A stretch of DNA of 22,643 nucleotides. Origin: a virus. The stretch spans positions 1 to 22,643 of the IMG/VR virus record IMGVR_UViG_3300022911_000066; one strand, given 5' to 3'. Positions within the stretch are counted from its first letter, which is position 1. Every line of letters starts with the position of its first letter. Positions 3,001 to 22,199 of this stretch are shown piece after piece. The position numbers and the translations under genes were made by a program. The notes beneath the pieces are model-generated. The model saw only the letters and a list, made by a program, of their open reading frames with translations, was not told the origin of the DNA and searched no databases.

Positions 3001-4861
3001 GCGGCTGCGGCTCTGGCTGCGGTTCGGGCTGCGGCTGCGCCTCGGTGCGCCCGCGCTCGCGAATACCAAGGCCGCCCATTTTGCCGGGATGATTTTCGAT
3101 CTCGAAAATCTGGTCCGGGGACTGTTGCTGCATTTTCAGGATAGTGCGCGCGACCGCGACGTGATCCTTCTCGCCAAAGCGCAGCGGACCGCCCTGGTCG
3201 GACATAACGAAGCCGCGATCATCGACATGGAAACGCCCGTCCGCGTCTTGTCCCTTGGGCGTGGCGCTATGGAGATCGTCATTGTCGCGCGGTTGCCGCC
3301 AAGACGGCTGCTCCTGCGTTCGCTGCTGGTTGCGCTGAAAGAAGTTGCGAAGGACTTCCGCTTCGGTGGCGGCGCGCTTCACGCCGCGCAGCGCGGCATG
3401 CCCGCCGCCGAGCGCCAGGCCCGCGACAACGTCTTGTCCCACACCGCGCAGCAACTCCTCGCCGCTCGGCAATTTGTCCCCGGTGACAAGCGGGACGCCG
3501 ATGCGGGTCGCCGTGCCGACTGCGGGCATAACTGGGAAAGCCGTGAACAGCATCTTGGCGACGGCGTTCTTGAACGGCGCATAGGCGAAGGCCGGGGCGC
3601 TGAGCCCGGCGATCCCGCCTTCGGTGGCCGCGCGTTTCCACGCATAGTCCACGGCCTCCTCGTGGCTCATGCCCTGCGCGCGTCCCGCTTTGTAGCCTGG
3701 GACAAGGCCCTGCGCGGTGCCGACAACGGTCATTGCCGCGCCGCCGCCGAGCATGGGACCGACTGGCCCGGCTTCCGGCAACAGTGCTCCGCCCGCCGCT
3801 GCGCCCGCGACGCCCGCCGTCAGCATCGGATAAGAATGCCCCATGCCATAGGCGACTTCGCCCATGAAACTACGCGGCTCAGGCTCTACGGACATCGGCT
3901 GATCGGTAAAGGCTTGGCCGCGCACAACCTGACCGCCTTCGCGTGTCCCCGCTGCAATGCCATGCCCGAGCATCTGAGGGACTTCCTCCATCGAATACCA
4001 GGGAATGTCGGGACGCCACGGCCTCGGCGCGGGGTCGGCGGCGCGATTGGGATCGGCAAAGTCATTCGGGACCAACGTCGCGAGATCGGGCGTCTTCGGG
4101 ATCGGGGACGGAAGGTTCGTTGCGGACAGGGTCGGCGGCGGCTCGGGCGGGAGATTTCTCTCGTCCCAAAACTCGGGAAGCTGGTTTTGCGGGACATCGC
4201 CCAGCGGGGAAAGAAATATCCCGCTGGGCTTCAACGTGGGCGCGGCTTCCTCTTGTCCCAGGACAATGCCGCTCGGGACAAGGGTGGGTTGCGCCGGTTG
4301 CGGCTGCTGCGCGACGAAGACATCCGAGACAGGACTTCCGTCCGGGTTCTCATAGTTGGGCGTGTCGGCCCATTCATCGTTGACCGGGACCGGCGCGGCC
4401 ATAGGCGCAGCCACAGCTTGCGCGCCGCCCATGAACGGCTTGCCGGTGATGTACTCCACATAATCCCGGGTTTCTTTCGGCGCGTTCGCGAGGCCCTGTC
4501 TCTCGACGTTCCCCATGCCCCAGTTGAATTTAGCCGCCGCACCCGCGTAGTCCTGGGCGGCCCCGAGCCGCCGCATATATTTCGCCCCGGCAAAGATCGA
4601 CTGTTTCGCGTCAAACGGATCGATGCCGTATTCCGCCGCCGTCGCGGGCATGAATTGCATGATGCCTTGCGCGCCCTTTGGCGAAACTGCGCGAGGGTTC
4701 AAATTGCTTTCACGCACCCCCTGACGGCGATACTGGACAGGATCGATGCCCTCTTGCTCCGCTGCCTGTCTAAACCATTCGTCATACTCGCTGCCGGGCG
4801 CGGACGCAGAACCGCCGCTGCCAAGGATGATACCGGACGGGACAAGACCGGGGTTGCTCAT
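1..4861 (-). CDS. Giant polyvalent virion protein, partial (transglycosylase + DdrB/ParB-like + HExxH domains)
   Basis: The frame is open from an ATG at 4861 to the window edge: 1,620 codons, C-terminus missing. Residues about 25-140 form an SLT-type lytic transglycosylase: RESNLNPRAVS (catalytic Glu about 51), GAQGIMQFMPATA, and KFNWGMGNV in place of the usual YNAGxGNV. Gly/Ala-rich hydrophobic stretches lie near 333-380 and 470-490. A Pro/Gln/Glu repeat spans about 605-626. Residues about 755-830 match DdrB-like ParB domains (QPRNRE, NLDPRHLMES, GAPIVNADG, then GNGR at 816-819). HEWGHAFDH begins at 1336, with EELFARTMEAY near 1459 as probable third zinc ligand, resembling domains associated with large polyvalent proteins. 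By family knowledge such proteins are packaged and injected, opening peptidoglycan and countering host defence or acting on DNA. The start overlaps the previous stop (ATGA), indicating translational coupling. Domain names are by eye; the role is inferred. Confidence 0.88.
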   Translation of the reverse strand, partial: MSNPGLVPSGIILGSGGSASAPGSEYDEWFRQAAEQEGIDPVQYRRQGVRESNLNPRAVSPKGAQGIMQFMPATAAEYGIDPFDAKQSIFAGAKYMRRLGAAQDYAGAAAKFNWGMGNVERQGLANAPKETRDYVEYITGKPFMGGAQAVAAPMAAPVPVNDEWADTPNYENPDGSPVSDVFVAQQPQPAQPTLVPSGIVLGQEEAAPTLKPSGIFLSPLGDVPQNQLPEFWDERNLPPEPPPTLSATNLPSPIPKTPDLATLVPNDFADPNRAADPAPRPWRPDIPWYSMEEVPQMLGHGIAAGTREGGQVVRGQAFTDQPMSVEPEPRSFMGEVAYGMGHSYPMLTAGVAGAAAGGALLPEAGPVGPMLGGGAAMTVVGTAQGLVPGYKAGRAQGMSHEEAVDYAWKRAATEGGIAGLSAPAFAYAPFKNAVAKMLFTAFPVMPAVGTATRIGVPLVTGDKLPSGEELLRGVGQDVVAGLALGGGHAALRGVKRAATEAEVLRNFFQRNQQRTQEQPSWRQPRDNDDLHSATPKGQDADGRFHVDDRGFVMSDQGGPLRFGEKDHVAVARTILKMQQQSPDQIFEIENHPGKMGGLGIRERGRTEAQPQPEPQPEPQPQPEPQPAAQEQPNGPVSTAANAPVTPEAPISSKGAGTTVRPGGQPDIAGLPGDQAGNIGLGGASSVPLPPEAANTDGDVSAGEQPKAAFVGVQDEPAAVAPAAPAPGQVPGTKKTGAVLASTGETHPVTYEVVDASQLSHPAIGDPRQPRNRETSAASAAQIGKIAGNLDPRHLMESDVAERGAPIVNADGTVLAGNGRFAAIKAAAEKHPDKYQGYVQAIKDAGHEIPPGVTNPVLVRRTGQMTPEAEIKLARDSNVSRAMSMSAVEQAKVDAANINDDMMSRYVPGDPRSERAWLQTLPETERAAVINEDGTGLSKVGQQRLKGAMLAKAYGHDDMLKRALEDPNDDTRGITNSLADVAPQWAKMKARIAADEIPAEFDITKQLTQALDMVRQQRESGGKITPSDMVNQLDLDRGPIEAVTEQLYRSFYNDSMTRLNSAKGLTGILHDYLQAAHNFTPQETFIGFEPDKPNPAHILKQIRSGTQEALFDKAGEPKEDVAGQETPEEEFEPLAAEDQALLDKANDQITKLQQSGASPGQLANRVNARRELLAKRKRKARPVDLNPPRHDAEQRTFDDYKFQRFTPNVRDAFVEHAEHNLGMNHADALDYANRIVNQGIETQIEVLRNQVKETFGFRDVTVVGDRTKFDARNVLLELHHVAQNMMYALQFPVEMASLGGKVDLVLEPLTSRSTGYGTYHPGTRTITVRGRSNVFGHEWGHAFDHAIADYITNNKNAHFLSTKLGRLGTFSANDPLAQRIGHLLNTMFHDHGEIAATKIALQIKAAEVNKAGSPTPGAKNAQNILDAMGTGQEIPGLNIGKSKFVQGAENMGDPYWLKEEELFARTMEAYLAQTMTMQGIDPRGVVMPDEAYLSNNGERLRNTFPKDAERLNIFAALEHVINGYRDEALFGSVAAARASTSGTSDPKVWGKLNVKNKPLAPFKTLVQRMRNWRKTLSDARLTDPNLPDPGARHLLKRWQLLAIEELWTRMGILEVMHEEVP
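2985..3044. repeat. 30-bp tandem repeat, two copies
   Basis: Two adjacent 30-bp units (2985-3014 and 3015-3044) match at 27 of 30 positions. They encode part of the Pro/Gln/Glu-rich spacer of the giant protein, a ten-residue unit of alternating EP and QP. The length keeps the frame. Such repeats can change copy number by slippage. Confidence 0.7.
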
Positions 4862-11759: not shown

Positions 11760-12842
11760 TTAGGTGATTTGCACAACAAGCGAAGAGTTCACTTGCTGCG
11801 CAACGATCTGCCCCGTGTGCGTCATGCTCTTGTACATGACGAACTGATTGTAGGGCCGCGCAGGGGTGAACTTGTGATCCCACTCGCCGTCCATCTTCAT
11901 CAGATAGATATGGCGAGGGTCCCACCAATAGCCGTACTTGGCTTTTCCAAGACCATCGAGCGTCGGGTCGTACTCGATCATCGTGTTGCCGAATTTCAGT
12001 TGTCCCATTTTGCCGTCCTGGGACCCTGTGAAGCCGGTCATCGAGTAGTTGCCGTTCGCCCGGATTTCAACTTCGAGCGCGCTGATGAAATCGGACCCTG
12101 CCAAGAACTTGGTGGGCCGACCGCCGAAACGGATCAACTGGCGATATTCCTGTTGCAAGAACTGGAACAGCGCGCCGCCGTTTGCGACGTTGGACGTGAC
12201 CGCCCCGCGCCCGCCCGCAAGCCCATAGGCCACGGTCGCCGCGCGGTTCTGCCACCAGGGATTTGCCAAGCGGCCAAGACCGCCGAGCGTCCCGGCGTTC
12301 GGGACATCGACGATGATGGACGCAAGACCGGCCAGTGCTTTCGGATCGGCCACGCCGTCGCCCCAACACAGGGCATTCATGGAGCGGGCGTACATCTCCC
12401 CGAAATCCTCAAGCTTGTCTTCGAGGAGATCGACCAGGACCGTGACTTCGCGGTCGCTATGGTTGGACGTGCCGTCGCCGTTCCCGGCGCTATCGGTCAC
12501 GCTGATGCCATCGATTTTCAATTCGGTGTGCGTCAGCGTCAGGCCGATGTGATGTTCACGCCACGGATAATTCACACGCTGAATATTTGCGGGCGTGTAG
12601 AAATTCACCGCGTCGTTATGGGTGTAACCGACGACATGATCATTCACGCCGCCCGAGCCATAGTTGCCTTTGACCGCGAGCGAAATGTTGCCTTTGCCGC
12701 CGGGGAAGGATTTTGCCGAGCCTTCAAAGAAACGAAGGAGCGGCTTGGCCTGGATCGACTGCTTAAAGGTGTCGCCTTTGTTGTAGTAAAAATCCAACGA
12801 CGCATTCGCGATGTTGGCGATTTCTCCTGCTGTGAAAGCCAT
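11760..12842 (-). CDS. Major capsid protein
   Basis: The protein is 360 aa, a usual size for an HK97-fold capsid subunit. It follows the scaffold gene by 18 bp. Supporting sequence: an N-terminal helix (FTAGEIANIANASLDFYYNKGDTFKQSI), a Gly-rich extended loop with SFPGGKGNISLAVKGNYGSGG, a P-domain-like middle (LVDLLEDKLEDFGEMYARSMNALCWGDG; FLQQEYRQLIRFGGRPTKFLAGSDFISALEVEIRANG) and a C-terminal strand region (GYWWDPRHIYLMKMDGEWDH, KFTPARPYNQFVMYKSMTHTGQIVAQQVNSSLVV). It assembles the icosahedral shell. Start ATG at 12842 has GGAAG about 9 nt upstream. Gene order portal-scaffold-capsid-adaptor supports the call. The exact capsid subfamily is not determined here. Confidence 0.9.
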   Translation of the reverse strand: MAFTAGEIANIANASLDFYYNKGDTFKQSIQAKPLLRFFEGSAKSFPGGKGNISLAVKGNYGSGGVNDHVVGYTHNDAVNFYTPANIQRVNYPWREHHIGLTLTHTELKIDGISVTDSAGNGDGTSNHSDREVTVLVDLLEDKLEDFGEMYARSMNALCWGDGVADPKALAGLASIIVDVPNAGTLGGLGRLANPWWQNRAATVAYGLAGGRGAVTSNVANGGALFQFLQQEYRQLIRFGGRPTKFLAGSDFISALEVEIRANGNYSMTGFTGSQDGKMGQLKFGNTMIEYDPTLDGLGKAKYGYWWDPRHIYLMKMDGEWDHKFTPARPYNQFVMYKSMTHTGQIVAQQVNSSLVVQIT

Positions 12843-12860: not shown

Positions 12861-14015
12861 TCAGCGGCTTGCGTTCCCCGCGAGCGCCATGAGCGCCGCT
12901 TCCTTCATGGTTTTGGGGACGCGCGAAGCCGAAACGGTTGAACCCTGGCTGCCGGATGGGACCGCGCGTGTGGGCTTGGGCGCGGGTCGAATGCGCGCAA
13001 GCTCTTTCGTGGCCTCATTGTAGGCGTCTTGGATCAGGGACACCGCTTCGTTCACATCACGCGGGGGACCGCGCTCTTGCAGAAGGGCCTGAGCAAATCG
13101 CTTAACGGCAACCGCCTTGTTCTGATAATCGGGGTCCCGTGCGCGCGTGTTCGCTTCCCAGGTGTTCACCGCCGTCTGGACTTGAACGAGCGTCTGCTGC
13201 TGCGTCTGCTGCTGCATCTGCTGCGTCTGTTCGGTCAAGCGATGCTCGGCATGACCGGCGCGGAAGCGCGTGCGGGACATTTCCGCTGCGGCTTCGGTGC
13301 TGATCAAACCCTGATCGACTTGCGCTTGCAGGTCCTTCGGGATGCGCAAACCCAACGCTTCCTGCGCCGACATCACATAGGGCGTGATGCCATTGAGAAA
13401 AGCTTGGTAATCTCCACGCCGGAGCGAAGCCCCGACGCCCAACAACATGTTCACGTCCTCGGGGACAAGCTTGTGTTGGTCGAGATAACCACGAAGCTGT
13501 CGGTGGGCGGCGAGTTCAGGCTCTACCGCCTGGAGATCGCGCCGGGCCTGATTGCGCTGGCCCAACAGCCGCTCGAAGCGCTTGCGCGTCTCGGGCCGCA
13601 ATTTGTTGAGTTCAGCCTCGGTCGGGTCCGGGGTGTCGTCACTAACAGCTTGTTGTGTTTGATCTGGTTGCGAACCGTCGCCGGGGGCTCCGGTTTCAGA
13701 GACAACACCTTGTTTGTCCGCTTGCTCGCCCAGGCCGAACTCGTCTTCGGAAGACGCAGGATCGACGGCTGGTTTATCAGGAAGGGATTTGACCACTGAC
13801 CGAACAGCGGCGAGCAATCCTTCCCGGTCGGACTGACGGGTGTTGGTTTCACTGGACGAAGGTGGGGGGCTGTCCGTTGCGCTTGGCGAGGGCGCGGAGC
13901 TTTCGCCGCTGTCAGCCGGGGACGACGCGGGCGCGGGGGACGAAGCCCCTGCATCCGGCGCGCTGGACGATGGCGCGCTTGTCACGTCCGAATTTGCCGA
14001 ACCCCGATCAGACAT
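12861..14015 (-). CDS. Capsid scaffolding protein
   Basis: The protein is 384 aa and lies between portal and major capsid. Residues 1-60 are almost only Ser, Pro, Ala, Asp and Gly and must be disordered. Residues 66-82 form a short helix, and DEFGLGE lies at 91-97. From about 135 there is a long helical region (ETRKRFERLLGQRNQARRDLQAVEPELAAHRQLRG). A Gln-rich coiled coil follows near 232-256, and a basic C-terminus (KPTRAVPSG, then KTMKEAALMALAG) resembles scaffold tails that contact the coat protein. It would guide shell assembly and then leave the capsid. The ATG at 14015 lacks a clear Shine-Dalgarno and has a possible promoter right upstream. Function rests on composition plus position. 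Confidence 0.82.
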   Translation of the reverse strand: MSDRGSANSDVTSAPSSSAPDAGASSPAPASSPADSGESSAPSPSATDSPPPSSSETNTRQSDREGLLAAVRSVVKSLPDKPAVDPASSEDEFGLGEQADKQGVVSETGAPGDGSQPDQTQQAVSDDTPDPTEAELNKLRPETRKRFERLLGQRNQARRDLQAVEPELAAHRQLRGYLDQHKLVPEDVNMLLGVGASLRRGDYQAFLNGITPYVMSAQEALGLRIPKDLQAQVDQGLISTEAAAEMSRTRFRAGHAEHRLTEQTQQMQQQTQQQTLVQVQTAVNTWEANTRARDPDYQNKAVAVKRFAQALLQERGPPRDVNEAVSLIQDAYNEATKELARIRPAPKPTRAVPSGSQGSTVSASRVPKTMKEAALMALAGNASR

Positions 14016-14023
14016 GGTCGCAA

Positions 14024-14053
14024 GTTATGCGCGTTGTGTTTGTGTTGCGTCAA
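14024..14053 (-). promoter_or_regulatory. Candidate sigma-70-type promoter before scaffold gene
   Basis: On the minus strand, TTGACG (14053-14048) lies 18 bp before CATAAC (14029-14024), giving 5/6 and 4/6 agreement with TTGACA and TATAAT. A transcript would begin about at the scaffold ATG (14015), which would make its message leaderless; this fits the absence of a Shine-Dalgarno there. The spacer is unusually A/C-rich compared with surrounding coding DNA. Only the sequence match supports this. Confidence 0.35.
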
Positions 14054-14066
14054 GTCCTGGCACCAC

Positions 14067-14083
14067 AAAAAAGCGACACCGCT
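14067..14083 (-). terminator. Weak intrinsic-terminator-like hairpin after portal
   Basis: On the minus strand a 4-bp stem (AGCG/CGCT, loop GTGT) is followed by a run of T residues (14072-14067). The stem uses the last bases of the portal stop codon. The stem is short for a rho-independent terminator, so at best it reduces read-through into the scaffold gene. Confidence 0.28.
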
Positions 14084-16412
14084 AGGGGGTGGGGAAGCCC
14101 TGATTGCTCATCGGCATGCGCGGCGGCCCACTACCCGGCCCGGGGCGGTTGCCGTTATTGCCGAAGTATTGCAGCGCGGGAGCCCGGGGGCCGAGGCCGC
14201 CCTGACCAGGCGGGGCTCCCGGTGGAGGACCGCCAGCAACAGCGCCTTGTGGGCCCTGCGCGTTCGGGTCTTGTCCGGGTCCGGGCCCCCGTGGGGCACC
14301 CTTCCCCGCACCCCGGGAGCCGCCGCCGCCCGCATCGCCCGGCTGGCCGGGCGGTGGAGCAGGAGGTTGGGACATAAGCTGGTTGAGCGCTTCCATCGAA
14401 GGGAGCCCTTCGGCAAAAGCATCGGTGAGATCGATGTCGTCGCCCATGCGGCGGATCAATTCGCGCGCCATCCATTCCGGCGAAATGCCGGGGACGCGCT
14501 GGAGCAGCGGAATAATCTGCGTGAGCATCTGCACGTCCTGCTGGCGGTTGGGCGGGCCGTTCGCGCCCGTGTTCACTTCCAGCCACATATTTTCCGCCAC
14601 GGACTGCGGATCAAGCTGCGGCCACACCGCGCCAGCGCCGACGACTTTTTTGACAGTCTCCTCGGTGACATTGAGCAGGAGGATTTGACTGGCCGCGATT
14701 GCCATCTCGGTCATCATGTCGTTGAGGTCATCGACAACAGAGGTCGTGTCGGTGTTCTGCGAAAAAGCCGCAACGCTGACTTCGGTCGCGGTTGCGCCGC
14801 CGGTCTGGCCTTGATCGGCTTGGTCCGAGCCCAGGACGCGAAGGACATCCTCGAAAGTCTGCGAAGTGTCATAGACGGACGGATCAATGGGCGGCATCTT
14901 TATGGGCTGCAACACATCGTCGATCTTTTGTCCCGGGGACAAAGCGTTCAATTCCAGGAGCGCATTGGCCGGATGAGTTCTGAGTTTTTCGAGATCAGCC
15001 TCTTCCAGCATTCCCGCCGCCACGGCAGTTTTCGGGCGATTGGCGCGGCGGTGCTCGCGCAAGCCCTGGCGAGCCCGGTTGAGTTCAAGCTGCATATCGC
15101 GGAGGAGATCAATATCAGACTGCGGGAAAAGCCGCTTTTCGTCATAGCCCTCGTTCATCACAAAGGCGAACCAGGGCCAGAAGCGTTCTGTCTCAGTTTC
15201 CGGCGGCGCGGGCTCTTGCAGAAAATCGGGATAGCCGTCGCACACCACCAGGACCGTCCCGTCCTTGCGATTGTAAATCTCCCACACGCACGCGCTCTCG
15301 TCGCAGGTGTTCTTGTCCCCGCCCGCTTCATAGCGATTGCGCTGGCCGCCGCGCCCAGGCTTGGGGCCCTTGTCGTCATAAGCGGTATAAGACATGCCGA
15401 CATCGACGGAATACACTTCCTTGATCTCGTCCAGGCTCAAAATATATTCCTCGGCCACCCAATCCGCGCCGACGAAATTCTTGAGCGACCGGCATTTCCG
15501 GTCAGGGATCAGCGCCGTGCTGTCGGTATAGTTGAAGGACAAGCCCTCGCGGACGATAAGCTGCGGCTCGGCCATCAACGCTTGCAGCGCGATTTTCAGG
15601 CTCTCGGCTTCGGCGCTGTCGTCCTGAAATTCAGCATCGGTGAAATCCGCCGTCAGGCGCTCGATATTCGCCAGCCGCTCGCTCATGTCGGAAATGCGCT
15701 GTTCGATCTCCGGGCTCATCTTCATGGCGCGCTGGAAACCAAGCTTGACATAGCCGACGCCGGTAATGATCGCCCGCCGCACCGTCATCTTCATGCCGGA
15801 TTTGAACGAGTGGGTCTGCTCGCGGATATTGTATTCGTACAAAAGCTCCAGCGTCTTGCCGACGCGGTCCATCATGCGGTTGAACTGTTCGACCATCTGC
15901 GCGTCTTGCAGGGTCATCAGCGCTTGCGGCGGCGGCATCATGCCGACCATGAGCGATTGCTGCACCGTCTGTTGCGCCTCGATCAATTCCATCGAGGAGC
16001 CGTCCCAGTTCTGCGCGATGATCTTCTCGGTCTTCTTGGCCTTCATCGTGGGGTTGTTGGGGTACAGTTCGGCGGTGCGCTGCTGGACATGCCGCAAGGA
16101 AATGTTGGCGACATAGCGGTCGTCCCGGGCATTGCCACCCGAGACAAAATCCGGCCATTGCTTTCCCTCGGTGAAAGCCATGTTGTCCCGCATGCGCTTG
16201 AAGTCTTTTTCAAAGTGCTCGCGGCTTTCTTTGACCCTTGTCGCCCAGTCTTCGACCAACTTGCGGCGGCCTTCTTCGGGTTGGGGTTTTTCCCGGGACA
16301 TGAACTGTTCGTCGTTGGCGGGCGCTTGTCCCAGGCCAAACTCGTCCTGCTCCATCATGGGATCGGGCGGCATCGCCGCCAGCGGATCAAACATGCTTCC
16401 AAGGGCAGACAT
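14082..16412 (-). CDS. Portal protein
   Basis: The protein is 776 aa from ATG 16412, the size of P22-like portals. It forms the dodecameric ring through which DNA enters and leaves. DEFGLGQ lies at 23-29. The region from about 45 has VEDWATRVKESREHFEKDFKRMRDNMAFTEGKQWP and RYVANISLRHVQQRTAELYPNNPTMKAK, typical of this portal group. The centre is mixed alpha/beta with RNRYEAGGDKNTCDES and VWEIYNRKDGTVLVV. A helix near 500-540 (LRDMQLELNRARQGLREHRRANRP) could line the channel. The last about 110 residues are Gly/Pro-rich. GTG 16415 is an alternative start, but GGAGG is 6 nt before the ATG and only 3 nt before the GTG, so ATG is preferred. Junction with TerL is TGATG. Confidence 0.9.
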   Translation of the reverse strand: MSALGSMFDPLAAMPPDPMMEQDEFGLGQAPANDEQFMSREKPQPEEGRRKLVEDWATRVKESREHFEKDFKRMRDNMAFTEGKQWPDFVSGGNARDDRYVANISLRHVQQRTAELYPNNPTMKAKKTEKIIAQNWDGSSMELIEAQQTVQQSLMVGMMPPPQALMTLQDAQMVEQFNRMMDRVGKTLELLYEYNIREQTHSFKSGMKMTVRRAIITGVGYVKLGFQRAMKMSPEIEQRISDMSERLANIERLTADFTDAEFQDDSAEAESLKIALQALMAEPQLIVREGLSFNYTDSTALIPDRKCRSLKNFVGADWVAEEYILSLDEIKEVYSVDVGMSYTAYDDKGPKPGRGGQRNRYEAGGDKNTCDESACVWEIYNRKDGTVLVVCDGYPDFLQEPAPPETETERFWPWFAFVMNEGYDEKRLFPQSDIDLLRDMQLELNRARQGLREHRRANRPKTAVAAGMLEEADLEKLRTHPANALLELNALSPGQKIDDVLQPIKMPPIDPSVYDTSQTFEDVLRVLGSDQADQGQTGGATATEVSVAAFSQNTDTTSVVDDLNDMMTEMAIAASQILLLNVTEETVKKVVGAGAVWPQLDPQSVAENMWLEVNTGANGPPNRQQDVQMLTQIIPLLQRVPGISPEWMARELIRRMGDDIDLTDAFAEGLPSMEALNQLMSQPPAPPPGQPGDAGGGGSRGAGKGAPRGPGPGQDPNAQGPQGAVAGGPPPGAPPGQGGLGPRAPALQYFGNNGNRPGPGSGPPRMPMSNQGFPTP
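14927..14943. repeat. Head-to-head TTGTCCC pair in portal gene
   Basis: TTTGTCCC and GGGACAAA face each other around one G. It encodes LSPGQK in the portal. Same composite as at 6489 with one extra central base. Confidence 0.55.
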
Positions 16413-17956
16413 CACCAGCCTCCAGTGCCATAGCCGACGCGCACCGAGCGCTCGGCCTGTTTTCTCTGTTCAAGCAAGTGCCCGAACGTGTTCTCGCCAA
16501 ATTCTTTTTGCTGCTGTCTCTGCTTGATCGACGCGCCCACCTGGAGCGTGAGGCCCAGGCCGATATAGGCCAGCGCGTCCACGAAATCGTCATGCGTGTC
16601 GAAAGGGAAACGGAGAAGCTGATCGCGCGCCATCGGCCACCAGGGCGCGCGCTCCGGGAAGCGGACCTTTCCCATGGACATGCGGCCCTGGATTGATTGC
16701 GCCCGGGTCTGCTTGTCGGCAATCGGCTGCATCTCGATCAGCGAACAATAGGTCGAAGTCTCCAGCATGCGCTTGCGCAAGAAAGGCCCAATCGACTTTG
16801 TGATGTGGCCTTTCTCGGCCCACCAGAAAACAGGGCGATGCGCCTTCATCATGCGCAGCATGCTCTCGACCGTCTGTTCGCTGGTCATCGCGCGCCAGAT
16901 CATGTCCGGCAAAATCCAGATATTGTCTTCCTTATCGACGCCCACCATGAGGAGACAGGTTTTGTCCGCGTACTGTTTAAGCGAGACGGCATGGTCAGAC
17001 GCCGCATAGCAGCGCAGATCGGCGGGCAGTTCGTTGGGCTTGTAGGTGTTGAGCCACTTGACGCTGAAAAATGTGCCGCCCGTTGGCGAAGGCCGTCCCT
17101 GATACAGCGCCGAGAAGCCGCGCACGTCGAGGCGCTGCTTGCCAAGCAGGAAAGTGCGCCCGAAGCGGCCCGGCCACAGAGGCTCTCCCTCTTCGCGCCC
17201 GAGCGGATCGACCGCTTTGCCGAACGAAAGGGCCGGCAAGTCGATGATCTTCCACTCCGCCGCCTCCTCCGGGTCATAGTGCGAATTGGCCGGATCGGTG
17301 AGACGCCCAATCAGATCGTCTTGGTGCCAGCGGGTTTGAATAAGCAGGATGCGGCCTGTCTCATCCATGAGACGGGTCGCGATCACTTGGCTAAACCAAT
17401 GCCAAAGCGTGTCGCGGATCGTGGGGCTGTCGGCTTCCTGTCTGTCCTTGAGCGGATCGTCGATGATCAGGAAGTCGCCGCCGCGCCCGGTGGTGGTGCC
17501 GCCTCGTCCCACGAAAGCGAAGATACCGCCCTTGTTGGTTTCCAGCCGGTCGCTCGCCTGGCTGTCGTCTTTCAGCGTCACGTCCGGGAAGACTTGGGCG
17601 AATTGCGGCGACATGATTATGTCGCGCACCGCCCGCCCAATGTCCTGCGAAAACTTCTCGTTGTAGGTGCCAAAAATCAGGCTCTTGTGCGGGTTGCGCC
17701 CGGCCAGCCATGCCGCGAACTTTTTCGACGCAAGCTCCGTCTTGCCGTGGCGCGGGCCAATCTGGATGATCAGCTTTTTGTAGCGACCGGCCTCAAGCTC
17801 CTCCAGCGCCGCCGCCATGATCTCGTGAAACTTCTGCGCCTCATAGCGCGAGAAATCAGGATCGTCCGGTTCTTCCGGCTTCGGCATCATCAGGCGCGTG
17901 AACGCAAGCAGACTGTCGCGCGCCGCGAGGCACGCGATCAGTCTCTTGAGCACCAA
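16412..17956 (-). CDS. terL: Terminase large subunit (ATPase-nuclease)
   Basis: This is the DNA-packaging motor. Counting from the TTG at 17956: Walker A GPRHGKTE at 67-74, Walker B FLIIDDP at 162-168, motif III TRWHQDD at 208-214. An RNase H-like nuclease domain follows, with Asp in YAASDHA (321), Glu in WWAEKGH (381) and HDDFVDALAY (455-464). Length of about 514 aa is normal. The start is unclear: the frame lacks a nearby upstream ATG and has only TTG 17956 or GTG 17953, without a well-placed Shine-Dalgarno. The coding frame reads sensibly further upstream (KLNKDQTRYE) until a TGA. An ATG at 17990 would join it if one A were removed from the AAAA run at 17987-17984. See findings. Confidence 0.92.
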   Translation of the reverse strand: MVLKRLIACLAARDSLLAFTRLMMPKPEEPDDPDFSRYEAQKFHEIMAAALEELEAGRYKKLIIQIGPRHGKTELASKKFAAWLAGRNPHKSLIFGTYNEKFSQDIGRAVRDIIMSPQFAQVFPDVTLKDDSQASDRLETNKGGIFAFVGRGGTTTGRGGDFLIIDDPLKDRQEADSPTIRDTLWHWFSQVIATRLMDETGRILLIQTRWHQDDLIGRLTDPANSHYDPEEAAEWKIIDLPALSFGKAVDPLGREEGEPLWPGRFGRTFLLGKQRLDVRGFSALYQGRPSPTGGTFFSVKWLNTYKPNELPADLRCYAASDHAVSLKQYADKTCLLMVGVDKEDNIWILPDMIWRAMTSEQTVESMLRMMKAHRPVFWWAEKGHITKSIGPFLRKRMLETSTYCSLIEMQPIADKQTRAQSIQGRMSMGKVRFPERAPWWPMARDQLLRFPFDTHDDFVDALAYIGLGLTLQVGASIKQRQQQKEFGENTFGHLLEQRKQAERSVRVGYGTGGW

Positions 17957-18008
17957 TTCGTATCGCGTCTGATCCTTGTTCAGTTTTCATCGTTCCAGCG
18001 GGCTTGCG

Positions 18009-18392
18009 TTAATCGGTCTGGCTGTCGGTGTCGTCGCATTCATCCAGGCCGAACTCTTTTTCCGCTTCCAGCGGACCGCCCACGATTGACGGCCATGGAT
18101 GCGTGCCGGGGATTTCCGTGATCGCCGGATTGACAGGCCCGGCAATCTCCGGCTCCGGCGCGATCACCGCGTTGGGATCGACGGCGAACGGATTGGTCCC
18201 CGGCGTCAGGGTGATCGCCGGGTCTTCGGCGGGCGGCACGGGCGGATCGGTGCCGGGCGGATTTTCGCCCTGCTCCCAGTGCGGCACGGACGGGACTTCC
18301 GCGTCCGGGTGCTGCGCCTGATAGCCCTCTTTTCCCGGGGGCTCGTCAACCGTGATGTAGGGAAGTTCAACAACGCCTTCGACGGTAGCCAT
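18009..18392 (-). CDS. 127-aa Pro-rich acidic protein
   Basis: Start ATG at 18392 overlaps the previous stop (TAATG), with AAGGAG 8 nt upstream, so translation is well supported. The product is acidic, Pro/Glu/Asp/Gly-rich and probably largely disordered. It contains an internal repeat, DPAITLTPGTNP (57-68) and NPAITEIPGTHP (88-99). Near its C-terminus it carries KEFGLDE (112-118), close to peptides found in the portal and scaffold. There is a single Cys and no membrane segment. It sits immediately upstream of TerL, the place where a small terminase often lies, but it has no DNA-binding look. Function unknown; a linker or docking protein for the packaging or head-assembly apparatus is a guess. 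Confidence 0.68.
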   Translation of the reverse strand: MATVEGVVELPYITVDEPPGKEGYQAQHPDAEVPSVPHWEQGENPPGTDPPVPPAEDPAITLTPGTNPFAVDPNAVIAPEPEIAGPVNPAITEIPGTHPWPSIVGGPLEAEKEFGLDECDDTDSQTD

Positions 18393-18562
18393 TATGCTTT
18401 CTCCTTTTCTTCGGGTTGCGGGACAAGCTGCGGCTGCATCTGCGACTGCGCTTGGCGTTGCAGTTCGGCAATGACCGGCGCGGCGGTGCGGTAGGCTGTG
18501 CTGCCTAGCGCCTCCATGATCGTGTTGGTCATCTCCATCGTGAGTTCAAATTTTAGCTGCAT
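18392..18562 (-). CDS. 56-aa small conserved phage protein
   Basis: I chose ATG 18562 rather than earlier candidates because GGAGG lies 9 nt upstream and because the peptide then begins MQLKFELTMEMTNTIMEALG. That pattern (short strand, then a helix with E-x-x-x-I-x-x-A-L-G and a second amphipathic helix, PVIAELQRQAQSQ) is common among small proteins encoded near structural genes in many phages. The C-terminus is Gln/Pro/Glu-rich and charged. It overlaps the preceding 71-aa gene by 17 bp and the next gene by one base. The function of such proteins is not known to me. Confidence 0.66.
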   Translation of the reverse strand: MQLKFELTMEMTNTIMEALGSTAYRTAAPVIAELQRQAQSQMQPQLVPQPEEKEKA

Positions 18563-18761
18563 CGGGGAAATCCTCCGTTTCCATGTCATCACCAAACTGA
18601 TCGACACACGCCGCACAGCCACAGTGCGGGCCGGTGCCGCGTTCGGTGTGGATCACGTCCATTTCCGCCGCCACGTCAGCGGGCGGGATCGGCGTCAACC
18701 GCTGCACGAGATAAATCTTGTCGGCGTCCTGCGCGGCATTGGGGACTTTGATCGTCGCCAT
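18546..18761 (-). CDS. 71-aa small protein with HCxCxxC cluster
   Basis: ATG 18761 has GAGAGGA close upstream and follows the fibre stop by 10 bp, so the start is well supported; an earlier in-frame start at 18812 would overlap the fibre gene and lacks a Shine-Dalgarno. The first 35 residues look folded (ATIKVPNAAQDADKIYLVQ, then RLTPIPPADVAAEMDV). A compact cluster His46-Cys47-x-Cys49-x-x-Cys52 suggests metal binding or a disulfide. The C-terminus is acidic. No named family recognised. Cotranscription with the fibre and with the 56- and 127-aa genes suggests a virion or assembly role. Confidence 0.64.
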   Translation of the reverse strand: MATIKVPNAAQDADKIYLVQRLTPIPPADVAAEMDVIHTERGTGPHCGCAACVDQFGDDMETEDFPDAAKI

Positions 18762-18771
18762 GTTGATCCTC

Positions 18772-21537
18772 TCAAAACGCCTGGATGGGTGTGTAATCGT
18801 CCACGCCGACAAGCTCTATCGTTGCGGTGATGCGGGCGCGAGAAATTCCGGTCGAGCCGCTGGAAAGCGGCGTGACGGTCAGGTTCATAAACCCGACCGG
18901 GCTTATGACGAGGGCAACCGCGACATTCACGGCGGCCACACCCGCATTGATGCTTTGTGCAAGGTGGCCGAGTTGGATCATGGAATAGACGCCCATGCTA
19001 CCCGCGAAGCTGGAATAGTTGCCGATGATTTCACGATAGACGCTGCTATATCCGGCGTTGCCGTCATCGTTGACCGCCGTGATCTTGACAATGACGCTGG
19101 TCGAAAGATTGCTGTTCTCATACGGCCACTTGAACATTGTGGTTTGCGCGTTCGTGGCGACACCGCCCAAGACGCCGTGGCGCTGAGCGCCGCGAGTACC
19201 CTGCACATATAGCTGGCCCACATTGTCCAGCCGCATCCGTTCGGCAAAATTAAACGGGTTGCCCGCGCCGGGAGCCGTCGCGCTGGTGTACCAAATATGC
19301 GCGCCGTCTTGCAGCCCGTAGAGACAAGTGTGCGTCCCCGACATGGCCCGCCACGTCGCGCCGTCGAAGAAAGCATTGTTCGTCAGTTGCAGCGCCGTGT
19401 TGGCGTTGGCCGCGTAGGCAATGCCGAAAATGCTGGCGGTCGGACCAAGGCTGATAGATTTATAGCGCGCGTCCCATGTCGCTTGCGGGATCGTGGCGAG
19501 GCCGAGCCGCCCGTTAATATCGAGCCGCATTGCCTCCGTCAGCGGCGCGAGCGCGTTCGCCGCGCCCGCTGGCGTGGTGTACCAAGTGAACGTCCCGCCG
19601 CCCCACCCGCCGAGGCAACCACCCGCCGCACCAATCAGCCGCCACGCCGCGCCGTCGTTCCAGAGATTTGAGCCGATGTACGCGCCATTACCCGCATTCT
19701 CTGAGATCAAGGCGCTGGTCAATCCAATCGCGACAACGCGATGCACTGGGTTCCACGCTTCGGGGGTGCGGCCAATGCCAAGATTGCCGCCCACGTCGAG
19801 GCGCATTTTTTCGCCACCGACATTGAAGGCATTATTGGTGCCAAACAGCATCGGCCCCTGACTGCCGAGGAACATGCCGGAAGAAGTTTGCAGCCCGCCA
19901 TAGCCCGCTACGGCAAGGCCCGTCCCTGCATAGTTCTGCCCCAACAGCATAAGATTGACGGCATTAGCGCCGTTGTAGGCCGACAACGCTACGCCCGCTG
20001 CATTGCCCGCGTTGGTATTGGTGATGCGGCCAATCGCCAAAGTGTTTGCGCCAGATTGCGTAATATCCAGCACGTTGACCGGCACCATGCCGATACCGAG
20101 ATTGCCCGCAGCGGAGAGCTGCATCCTCTCGGCGGTGCCGCCCGCCGCAAAGTACATCGCGCCGCCCGCAAGCAGCGCAAGCCCTGCGGCGGCTTGCAGC
20201 ACGCCGCGCCCGGCCTGGATCACGCCGTCCGCGACTTTCGCCGTAGGATAAATCAGAAGCGAGGCTTGCGCGCCCGTGTCGTTCTTGGCGATGAAGCCCG
20301 CCGTCGAGAGCGCGCCGTTGTAGGTGTTGCGCACCAGCGCGACGACCGGGCCGTTGACGACTGCGCCCTCCATGTCGAGAAATTCAACCGGCGCGCGGGC
20401 GGGCACGCCCAAGAACAGTTTGTTGAAGGCGGGCGTGTTCGCCTTGTTCAAATCCTGATCGAAGGGATTGGATGTTGTGATCAGCGCCAGCGTGGCCGGG
20501 TTCAAGTCAACCGGGTCGATGGTGCCGTTGGCGATTTTTCCCGATGTGACGCTATTGTCCTGGAGCGCCGCCGTGTCCACCGCCCCGTCAGCCAGCGCCC
20601 GCGCGGACACCGCGCCGGTCGCAAGCTTGGGTTCGGTCACGCATCCGTCGATCAGGTGGATCGTGTTGATGGAATTGGGCGGGAGGGACGAAGGCGCTGC
20701 CGCGATCCAGTCCGTGCCGTTCCAAATCCTGATCGTGCCGGGCGGGATCGACGTGTCGAACCAGATCGCCCCAATGGGAAGCGGATCGCCGGTCACTGTG
20801 AACAGCGGCGGCGTGGGGCCCGCACCGGCATAGTACCAGCCCGCCGCACCGAACGCCTGATTTGCCTTGTTCGCCCACCAGCGCGAGGACCAATGGTCCC
20901 CCGTGATCGCATTCACCGCCAGGACTTCGGGCGGGATGGTGTCGGGCATGTGCTCCGCCCACGCACCGGCAAGCTCGGTGTAGAGCATCGCCGCGCCTTC
21001 CGCGCCTTCGGCATCTGCCGCAGCATTTTCCGCCGCCGTCTTGGCATTGACGGCGGCGGTTTCTGCTAACGCTGCTGCGGTTTCCGAGCCCTCGGCTTCG
21101 GCTGCGGCGGCTTGGGCGGCTGCTGCCGCCGCTGCGGCATTGGCGGCTTGCCCCGCTGCGGAGGTTGCTTCTGCTTCTGCATTCGTGGCTGAGATTTGCG
21201 CTTGGCTGGCATAGCTTTGGGCCTCTGTTACTAGGGGTTGGACGTCATCGATGATCCCCTGCGAAACGTCATCGAACAGTCCGGGGACAAAATTGTTCGC
21301 GTCGAGAATTGCATCACGAATTGTCCCGTCGCTGTTGAGCGACACGCTGGCCCAAGCCAGTTGCGCGGCCACCGCCGCGTTGGTCAGATCGAAATTGCTG
21401 TCGAGCTTGTCGCCCGGGGGCGGCTCGGTGGGATGCGCAACTTGCCAATCGGTGAAAGAAAAATTCCGAACAGGCGGCGCGGGCATCGGGGCTGTCAGTG
21501 CCGACACCAAAAGCGCCGATCTCAACCGCCCCGCCAT
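18772..21537 (-). CDS. Tail fibre / receptor-binding protein
   Basis: The protein is 921 aa. ATG 21537 is preceded by AAGGAAGGGA about 7 nt upstream; Met18 is a weaker alternative. Residues about 24-56 (NFSFTDWQVAHPTEPPPGDKLDSNFD) match the conserved N-terminal region of many podovirus fibres that attaches to the tail. Residues about 105-190 are almost all Ala, Glu, Thr and Asn and should form a trimeric coiled coil. A short Trp-rich domain follows (230-280), then a beta-helical shaft. Four copies of an (E)xMxLxxxGxLGI-type repeat begin near 465, 574, 665 and 763. The last about 130 residues are beta-rich with no visible chaperone-type self-cleaving end. It would bind the host receptor. Its place upstream of TerL, away from the other tail genes, is noteworthy. 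Confidence 0.86.
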   Translation of the reverse strand: MAGRLRSALLVSALTAPMPAPPVRNFSFTDWQVAHPTEPPPGDKLDSNFDLTNAAVAAQLAWASVSLNSDGTIRDAILDANNFVPGLFDDVSQGIIDDVQPLVTEAQSYASQAQISATNAEAEATSAAGQAANAAAAAAAAQAAAAEAEGSETAAALAETAAVNAKTAAENAAADAEGAEGAAMLYTELAGAWAEHMPDTIPPEVLAVNAITGDHWSSRWWANKANQAFGAAGWYYAGAGPTPPLFTVTGDPLPIGAIWFDTSIPPGTIRIWNGTDWIAAAPSSLPPNSINTIHLIDGCVTEPKLATGAVSARALADGAVDTAALQDNSVTSGKIANGTIDPVDLNPATLALITTSNPFDQDLNKANTPAFNKLFLGVPARAPVEFLDMEGAVVNGPVVALVRNTYNGALSTAGFIAKNDTGAQASLLIYPTAKVADGVIQAGRGVLQAAAGLALLAGGAMYFAAGGTAERMQLSAAGNLGIGMVPVNVLDITQSGANTLAIGRITNTNAGNAAGVALSAYNGANAVNLMLLGQNYAGTGLAVAGYGGLQTSSGMFLGSQGPMLFGTNNAFNVGGEKMRLDVGGNLGIGRTPEAWNPVHRVVAIGLTSALISENAGNGAYIGSNLWNDGAAWRLIGAAGGCLGGWGGGTFTWYTTPAGAANALAPLTEAMRLDINGRLGLATIPQATWDARYKSISLGPTASIFGIAYAANANTALQLTNNAFFDGATWRAMSGTHTCLYGLQDGAHIWYTSATAPGAGNPFNFAERMRLDNVGQLYVQGTRGAQRHGVLGGVATNAQTTMFKWPYENSNLSTSVIVKITAVNDDGNAGYSSVYREIIGNYSSFAGSMGVYSMIQLGHLAQSINAGVAAVNVAVALVISPVGFMNLTVTPLSSGSTGISRARITATIELVGVDDYTPIQAF

Positions 21538-21595
21538 CCAGGTCCCTTCCTTCGGACTACAAGATTTTGTCCCTGGGTCGCAGCACTAACACAAC

Positions 21596-21617
21596 AAATG
21601 CAAGACACGCAATGCAG
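21596..21617 (+). repeat. AATGCA direct repeats (two copies, third at 21886)
   Basis: AATGCA occurs at 21597-21602 and 21611-21616, a 14-bp step. A longer related copy, CAC(A/G)CAATGCAG, is present at 21606-21617 and 21881-21892 with 11 of 12 bases equal. All are in the intergenic region. Iteron-like protein binding is possible; only the repetition is observed. Confidence 0.4.
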
Positions 21618-21717
21618 ACCAGCGCGGTCGTCTTTCGCCTGCTGGCTTATGGCGTCGAAAATTTGAAGCCTGTCCGCTCAGTTAGCAGGGGGAGCTTTCG
21701 GCTAAAAGTGAGTAATA

Positions 21718-21729
21718 ACAACATGTTGT
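21718..21729. promoter_or_regulatory. Palindrome ACAACATGTTGT, copy 1 (operator candidate)
   Basis: A perfect 12-bp palindrome between the 97-aa gene and the fibre gene. The same 12 bp recur at 22615-22626, and the shared sequence extends to AACAACATGTTGTCT in opposite orientation. Dyad symmetry and location at both putative control points suggest the binding site of a dimeric repressor or activator. No regulator gene is seen in the window. Confidence 0.45.
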
Positions 21730-21732
21730 CTA

Positions 21733-21764
21733 GGGTGGAGAAATTTCAAATTTTATATCCACCC
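21733..21764. other. Hairpin with AT-rich loop
   Basis: GGGTGGA (21733-21739) is exactly complementary to TCCACCC (21758-21764). The 18-bp interior is AT-only apart from two bases and contains a second small dyad (AAAT/ATTT). No T-run follows on either strand, so it is not a standard terminator. It may be a protein-binding site, a structured RNA leader for the fibre operon, or a cruciform-prone element. Confidence 0.45.
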
Positions 21765-21857
21765 CATCATAGGGCACGGCGCGCGGCGGCGCGGACCCCG
21801 GGGGGTGGCGGACGCGGCCAGGGGACAAGGCGGGACGGCGTTGTCCCCTCTCCTGCC

Positions 21858-21885
21858 GTGTTGCGTCCTGGGGTAGGACGCACAC
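21858..21885. other. Hairpin downstream of the 97-aa gene
   Basis: GTG-T-TGCGTCCT pairs with AGGACGCA-CAC around a GGGGT loop: 11 base pairs with one bulged base. It begins about 20 nt after the stop of the 97-aa gene in the direction of transcription. No T-run follows, so a factor-independent terminator is unlikely; transcript-end stabilisation or attenuation is possible. Confidence 0.45.
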
Positions 21886-21905
21886 AATGCAGCAGGGACA
21901 AGGGC

Positions 21906-22199
21906 TTAGCGGCACTTGTCCCGCAAACGCTCAAGCTCCTGCTCAAGTTCAGCCCGGGACAATTGTCCCACCGGCACCGATGACCCCTTGGCCGGGGCCG
22001 CCTGATGACGCCCGATCAGCCCATCCATCTCAGCCAGGGTTCGGCCCGCCGACGCTTGCGCCTGGGGCGAAGCCTTCGGATTGTCCATTACTTTCAATAG
22101 TTTGGCTCTCACATCATAACCGGGCGACATCTTGTTGTCCCGCACCTTGTCCCGATGCTTGTCCAGGCCCAACCCGAAATCCTCTAAGCCGCTTCCCAT
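21906..22199 (-). CDS. 97-aa protein, possible small terminase or DNA-binding factor
   Basis: ATG 22199 has GGAAGGGA 8 nt upstream and overlaps the end of the zinc-knuckle gene by 16 bp; a longer form from 22262 lacks a Shine-Dalgarno and would overlap more. The protein is helical and charged: LEDFGLGLDKHRDKVRDNKM, a middle helix AQASAGRTLAEMDGLIGRH, and a C-terminal helix LSRAELEQELERLRDK. Residues 7-11 (DFGLG) resemble a peptide in portal and scaffold. Small, helical and upstream of TerL (although separated by the fibre) makes a small terminase subunit conceivable, but I see no convincing helix-turn-helix. Best reported as unknown. Confidence 0.6.
   Translation of the reverse strand: MGSGLEDFGLGLDKHRDKVRDNKMSPGYDVRAKLLKVMDNPKASPQAQASAGRTLAEMDGLIGRHQAAPAKGSSVPVGQLSRAELEQELERLRDKCR
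21956..21969. repeat. Tail-to-tail TTGTCCC palindrome
   Basis: GGGACAATTGTCCC is a perfect 14-bp palindrome in which two heptamers diverge. It lies within the 97-aa gene, in the densest cluster of the motif. Confidence 0.6.

Follow-up and report, generated by a model that had tools for sequence, protein, structure and literature searches.

Our results suggest that a short peptide, with a [DE]-F-G-L core and usually reading D-E-F-G-L-G, is a linear docking motif for one common partner. We infer the binding itself, and put the probability of this reading at about 0.6. According to it, at least five unrelated proteins (portal, scaffold, a small-terminase-like protein, a 127-aa protein and a primase-helicase) would each bear one copy, near an end or between domains, in such a way that the same partner grips them all. 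The replication, packaging and head-assembly proteins of phages are commonly pictured as making contact pair by pair, each pair through surfaces of its own, and one label on at least five such proteins implies a common hub, of the phage or of the host. The earlier note had proposed docking from four copies ascribed to head assembly. Docking on one partner is still the best reading, given a core that is kept, codons that differ and a fifth carrier, but the motif is restricted to one clade and is not a matter of head assembly alone. The docking idea needs to take in replication, and to be confined to a single small clade of three phages.

The peptide and its gene context

The window, a virus record of 22,643 bases, holds a tailed-phage morphogenesis module on the minus strand, with a small-terminase-like protein, a 921-aa protein, a 127-aa protein (p127), TerL, portal, scaffold, major capsid protein, an SU10-type adaptor and virion proteins. 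Family matches back TerL, portal, capsid and adaptor; the scaffold and the small terminase are named from place only, as is the 921-aa protein, which we call tail-fibre-like. The relevant features are:

11760..12842, minus strand: major capsid protein, 360 aa (phrog_9953, E 2.1e-31); possible partner, without the motif
12861..14015, minus strand: putative scaffold, 384 aa, by its position between portal and major capsid protein
13725..13745, minus strand: motif copy 2, DEFGLGE, within the N-terminal third of the 384-aa scaffold
14082..16415, minus strand: portal protein, 777 aa (phrog_12082 portal, E 5.6e-8)
16326..16346, minus strand: motif copy 1, DEFGLGQ, portal residues 24-30 counted from GTG, in the N-terminal tail
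16412..17956, minus strand: TerL, 514 aa (Terminase_6N/6C; phrog_38, E 5.5e-103); possible partner, without the motif
18009..18392, minus strand: p127, 127-aa proline-rich protein, upstream of TerL
18039..18059, minus strand: motif copy 3, KEFGLDE, close to the p127 C-terminus
21906..22199, minus strand: small-terminase-like protein, 97 aa; function inferred from size and place only
22164..22184, minus strand: motif copy 4, EDFGLGL, small-terminase-like protein, residues 6-12 of the 97-aa form

The four peptides are present as first noted in the portal, scaffold, 127-aa and 97-aa proteins, all on the minus strand, and a six-frame scan of the window found [DE]FGL at these places and nowhere else. 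Portal residue numbers shift by one depending on whether the GTG or the next ATG is taken as start. From a TTG start the small-terminase-like protein has 118 aa (p118); the MG... start of its 97-aa form is common to two relatives described below, L082 and L084. The scaffold had no Pfam or PHROG match, and neither p127 nor the small-terminase-like protein and its relative in G001 had a match in Pfam, PHROG or NCBIfam. The peptides had been described as lying in disordered or terminal segments, and they are indeed terminal in portal, p127 and p118. No helix or strand is predicted for portal residues 1-47, but with a mean pLDDT of 43.8, in a portal model too poor to rely on. Elsewhere in the module, another peptide, L(V/K)PSGI(I/V/F)L, occurs three times in the N-terminal part of the 1620-aa virion protein (window ~4200-4846, minus strand), and a relative, G021, has PDFDKLVPLG three times in the same family.

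Chance level and conservation in close relatives

In the 7416 aa of the 18 window proteins used, [DE]FGL is expected 0.18 times, and none of 20,000 per-protein shuffles placed it in four proteins. Yet the pattern was chosen after being seen. When every 4-residue pattern with a single class position was allowed, an equally extreme one or a more extreme one turned up in 70.5% of 200 shuffled proteomes, and in the real window proteome another 4-residue pattern outranks [DE]FGL. The suggestion that the peptide is above chance in the proteome therefore survives against shuffles but not, in the window alone, after the look-elsewhere correction: the window by itself proves nothing, and the case beyond chance has to come from retention of the core in close relatives and from a fifth protein.

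Searches of IMG/VR with portal, p127, p118, scaffold, primase, TerL and capsid returned many relatives, few of them close: L002 (TerL 91%), L082 (TerL 92%, 7.1 kb) and L084/G001 (31 kb). For L002 and G001 the metagenome of origin is the same, and 22 bases at the end of one recur at the start of the other. The two probably belong to a single genome, and we therefore count three phages, namely the window, L082 and L002/G001. Together these have 12 copies of the motif. The portal site reads DEFGLGQ in L002 and DEFGLTP in L082; the scaffold site is DEFGLGE in L002, as in the window; the p127 site is SEFGLEE in L002 and EEFGLEE in L082; and the p118 site is DEFGLGQ in L084/G001 and DEFGLGP in L082. 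The acidic context first noted is borne out, with an acidic residue directly before FGL in 12 of 12 copies and one further back in 10 of 12, position -2 being K (window) or S (L002) in two p127 copies.

In seven ortholog comparisons with the window, the core was kept at 28 of 28 positions and the flanks, taken as up to 20 residues per side, at 149 of 252 (59%), with D and E scored as equal in the core (Fisher p 1.1e-6, a value that is indicative only, because the window enters each comparison and makes them interdependent). The clearest case is the C-terminus of p127, where the window and L002 agree at 12 of 38 flanking positions and E-F-G-L is wholly kept. Codons vary from copy to copy, which indicates that selection acts on the peptide and led us to reject a DNA element in its place.

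The fifth carrier is an 825-aa protein of G001 that has DEFGLGE at residues 213-219, between a RepB_primase-like N-terminal region and a DUF5906/VapE-like helicase region; it has PHROG primase matches, and its RepB_primase and VapE matches fall below the Pfam cut-offs. Across the G001 proteins used (5944 aa), chance would give the exact heptapeptide 1.6e-5 times, and because G001 was recovered through p118, not through the primase-helicase, its presence there is a fair hold-out. The peptide thus recurs in unrelated proteins of one proteome, the four of the window and this primase-helicase. Its sharing among head-assembly proteins, as originally put, is too narrow a description, since a replication protein has it too. 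At the same place in the primase linker, four relatives (G017, G018, G021 and G023) have a conserved EPFDPF, and their g170, a recombination-region protein, has GDPF. We considered EPFDPF as a counterpart label and rejected it: it looks conserved, but the other clients lack it.

The absence of significance in the window after correction, and the small number of genomes, could be taken to mean that a chance repetition was kept by common descent in three close genomes. We regard this as very improbable, in view of the intact core amid diverged flanks, of the identical 7-mer in the unrelated primase, and of a count over the clade's called genes (22,761 aa), which gave [DE]FGL 10 times and each of the other 23 letter orders 0 to 4 times. 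The 4 belongs to FGL[DE], partly in the same copies, and gene calling missed some of the 12 copies. Judging from these sequence comparisons with relatives, the peptide is more than chance.

Distribution in wider relatives

Conservation in homologues, the check that had been asked for, gave a divided answer: the motif is kept in the three close phages and missing at the same sites in wider relatives. Among the matches listed, counted as distinct sequences outside the window and with portal tails taken by alignment, it is present in 2 of 121 portal tails (L002 and L082; the other 119 lack it), 1 of 61 readable scaffold N-termini (from 103 distinct scaffolds), 2 of 11 p127 proteins, 2 of 34 p118 proteins and 1 of 17 primase ORFs, fragments included. 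Every motif-positive sequence among these matches belongs to the three phages. As far as sequences can tell, such concerted presence and absence fits what a common partner would give, although one clade amounts to one evolutionary contrast.

The same distribution would be expected if the motif docked a host protein of importance to this clade's host alone (a chaperone, a protease adaptor, or a hub of replication or of the cell pole), because close phages would then have the motif and relatives with other hosts would lack it. Such a factor accounts for the clade-restricted, concerted presence as well as the phage's own AAA+ pair, presented below, does, and clients that span replication to head assembly are what a general host hub would have. 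Against it, two genome scans in search of a host or prophage found no relative. For a factor of the beta-clamp type there is a further objection: the consensus of clamp-binding motifs has a Q three residues before the first hydrophobic residue, and Q stands at position 1 in only 4 of the 12 copies, so we rejected a beta-clamp-binding motif. Overall, a host factor is conceivable, but we would not bet on it.

The capsid protein and TerL had both been proposed as partner. In model phages, portal and small terminase contact TerL, and scaffold and portal contact the capsid, which would suit either one as docking site. Neither accounts for all five clients, above all the primase-helicase, and the sister phage L044 has a TerL that is 87% identical though its p127 lacks the motif and its portal has only NFGL. 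No large change in TerL thus came with the motif, and docking on TerL or capsid seems to us improbable. The L044 portal reads MNFGLM at the motif site (portal residues 21-23), perhaps an intermediate, precursor or remnant of the motif.

Looser or more distant versions of the peptide were also considered. The broader pattern [DE][DE][FML]GL was rejected, with 9 matches in 206,720 aa against up to 24 for permuted patterns; peptides of this acidic-acidic-[FML]-G-L kind are seen in acidic stretches of g170 in G004, G008 and G016 and of the p207 relatives in G004 and G016. EDFGLVLDLAA, found in scaffolds of more distant relatives, is a different, conserved stretch unrelated to the motif site. A scan of viral contigs for DEFGLG[EQ] gave 43 loci, some of them outside listed frames or in frames that are possibly not genes, and none outside the clade had the motif in several of these client proteins; the match in L137 sits in an ADP-ribosyltransferase-like region. 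Another viral scan, with the capsid protein, found no further motif-bearing phage; L263 has a capsid protein at 90%, but its record begins after the scaffold. No other comparable exact 5-mer was found to be shared by portal, scaffold, p118 or primase in the 12 relatives fetched whole, nor anything comparable in Microcystis phage Mae-Yong1326-1, a search that degenerate motifs could escape, and open-licence PMC papers yielded nothing matching a shared phage docking peptide.

Candidate partners and known systems

Beside p118 in G001, and transcribed divergently from it, lie the genes of a 491-aa MoxR-class AAA+ ATPase and a 641-aa CobT-like protein, which overlap by 4 bases:

L084:6084-8009 and L084:8006-9481, minus strand: MoxR AAA+ / CobT-like HExxH-VWA pair, divergent from the small-terminase-like gene

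Extrapolating by homology, the pair would start ~60 bases past the right end of the window; the end of the L082 contig encodes residues 1-52 of this ATPase at 96% identity. The ATPase matches AAA_5 (69.1 bits) and CbbQ_C (37.0 bits) above the Pfam cut-offs, which places it in the MoxR class, and its PDB matches are Midasin, CbbQ, NorQ and CobS. Its neighbour has an HEVCH close to the N-terminus, an acidic linker of some length, and a VWA domain in which the MIDAS residues DLSGS, T and D align. The best match of the model of this CobT-like protein (mean pLDDT 63.5, better within the two domains; comparisons also used Foldseek) is Rea1-MIDAS bound to its UBL ligand (Z 20.5, 202 residues, 2.7 A), and comparison with the NorD VWA gave Z 18-19 (best Z 19.2, 192 residues, 2.9 A); both are domains that bind acidic residues.

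There are published precedents for such pairs. In CbbQO, the CbbO MIDAS binds one acidic residue of Rubisco (PMC4660213). Besides a VWA protein, the MoxR protein p618 of the archaeal virus ATV binds three more viral proteins (PMC4124505), and a jumbo-phage MoxR-vWA pair with a metallopeptidase domain has been proposed to act in virion assembly and structural protein processing (PMC7824862). Taken with the MIDAS fold matches, these precedents make it natural to see in the pair a hub that would recognise an acidic peptide on its clients. By analogy, and on circumstantial grounds, we tentatively rank the phage's own MoxR AAA+ ATPase and VWA co-factor first among the possible partners, though at well below even odds. 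The pair was outside the list first proposed (capsid, TerL, chaperone, protease), and is a candidate at least as good as those. The metal of the VWA MIDAS would coordinate the invariant acidic residue of the motif, a pocket would take up FGL, and remodelling of the client would fall to the AAA+ ring; portal, terminase small subunit and hexameric helicase are all expected to form rings or oligomers. MIDAS binding of so short a peptide is a candidate mechanism, not an established one, and it has against it that in CbbQO an 11-mer spanning the acidic residue failed to stimulate the ATPase (PMC4660213).

The pair is kept in many relatives: a VWA match was found in 14 of 23 relative records, and among the relatives fetched whole 12 of 12 have the AAA+ protein and 11 of 12 the VWA protein. 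None of these 12 has DEFGLG in portal, scaffold, p118 or primase, and the peptide is also absent from Mae-Yong1326-1, which has CobS/CobT. The pair is thus retained where the peptide is missing, and does not depend on it in general.

The HExxH domain of the CobT-like protein suggests another role, in which this domain or another protease would cut at the motif and trim portal, scaffold, terminase-like protein, p127 and primase. Sites near ends or between domains would suit cleavage, as would the HEVCH of the phage protein, in line with the processing proposed for the jumbo-phage metallopeptidase pair (PMC7824862). We nevertheless judge it unlikely: a cut in the primase linker, or one 10-20 residues short of a protein's C-terminus, has no clear use; HExxH is kept in relatives without the site; and family searches, which covered part of the window genes, brought up no recognisable prohead protease.

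If the hub is the MoxR-VWA pair, the presence of cobS/cobT in so many tailed phages would have an explanation, and the function of these genes would become directly testable with a short peptide. One paper gives the cobalamin view of phage CobS/CobT (PMC8651126) and another still calls the function of phage cobS/cobT uncertain (PMC11288001). One might speculate, with rather low confidence, that phage CobS/CobT-like genes encode a client-remodelling machine and are not vitamin B12 genes, that their address label is a MIDAS-bound acidic peptide on portal, scaffold, terminase small subunit and primase-helicase, and that a single AAA+ motor serves replication, packaging and head assembly. Other subclades would then use other, so far unseen labels.

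Like CobS-CobT, CbbQ-CbbO, NorQ-NorD, Rea1/midasin and ATV p618-p892, the phage pair joins a MoxR-class AAA+ protein to a VWA protein with a MIDAS. ATV p618 binds several viral proteins (PMC4124505), and multi-client binding by the phage pair is our hypothesis. For the known pairs, no shared client peptide is named in the portions of the literature consulted; here one is hypothesized, with relatives that lack it. The best-named homologues are the cobaltochelatase subunits CobS and CobT, known as phage auxiliary metabolic genes, and those of Mae-Yong1326-1 are so annotated. We rejected this identity for the phage pair, which scores far under the NCBIfam equivalog cut-offs (62.9 versus 558.55 bits for CobS, 28.7 versus 759.05 bits for CobT).

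Prokaryotic docking peptides include clamp-binding motifs, SSB tails and the cargo-loading peptides of encapsulins. Like the motif as proposed here, they put one short peptide on many unrelated proteins, which one hub grips. The phage motif differs from them in its sequence, in not lying at the very C-terminus, and in spanning both assembly and replication.
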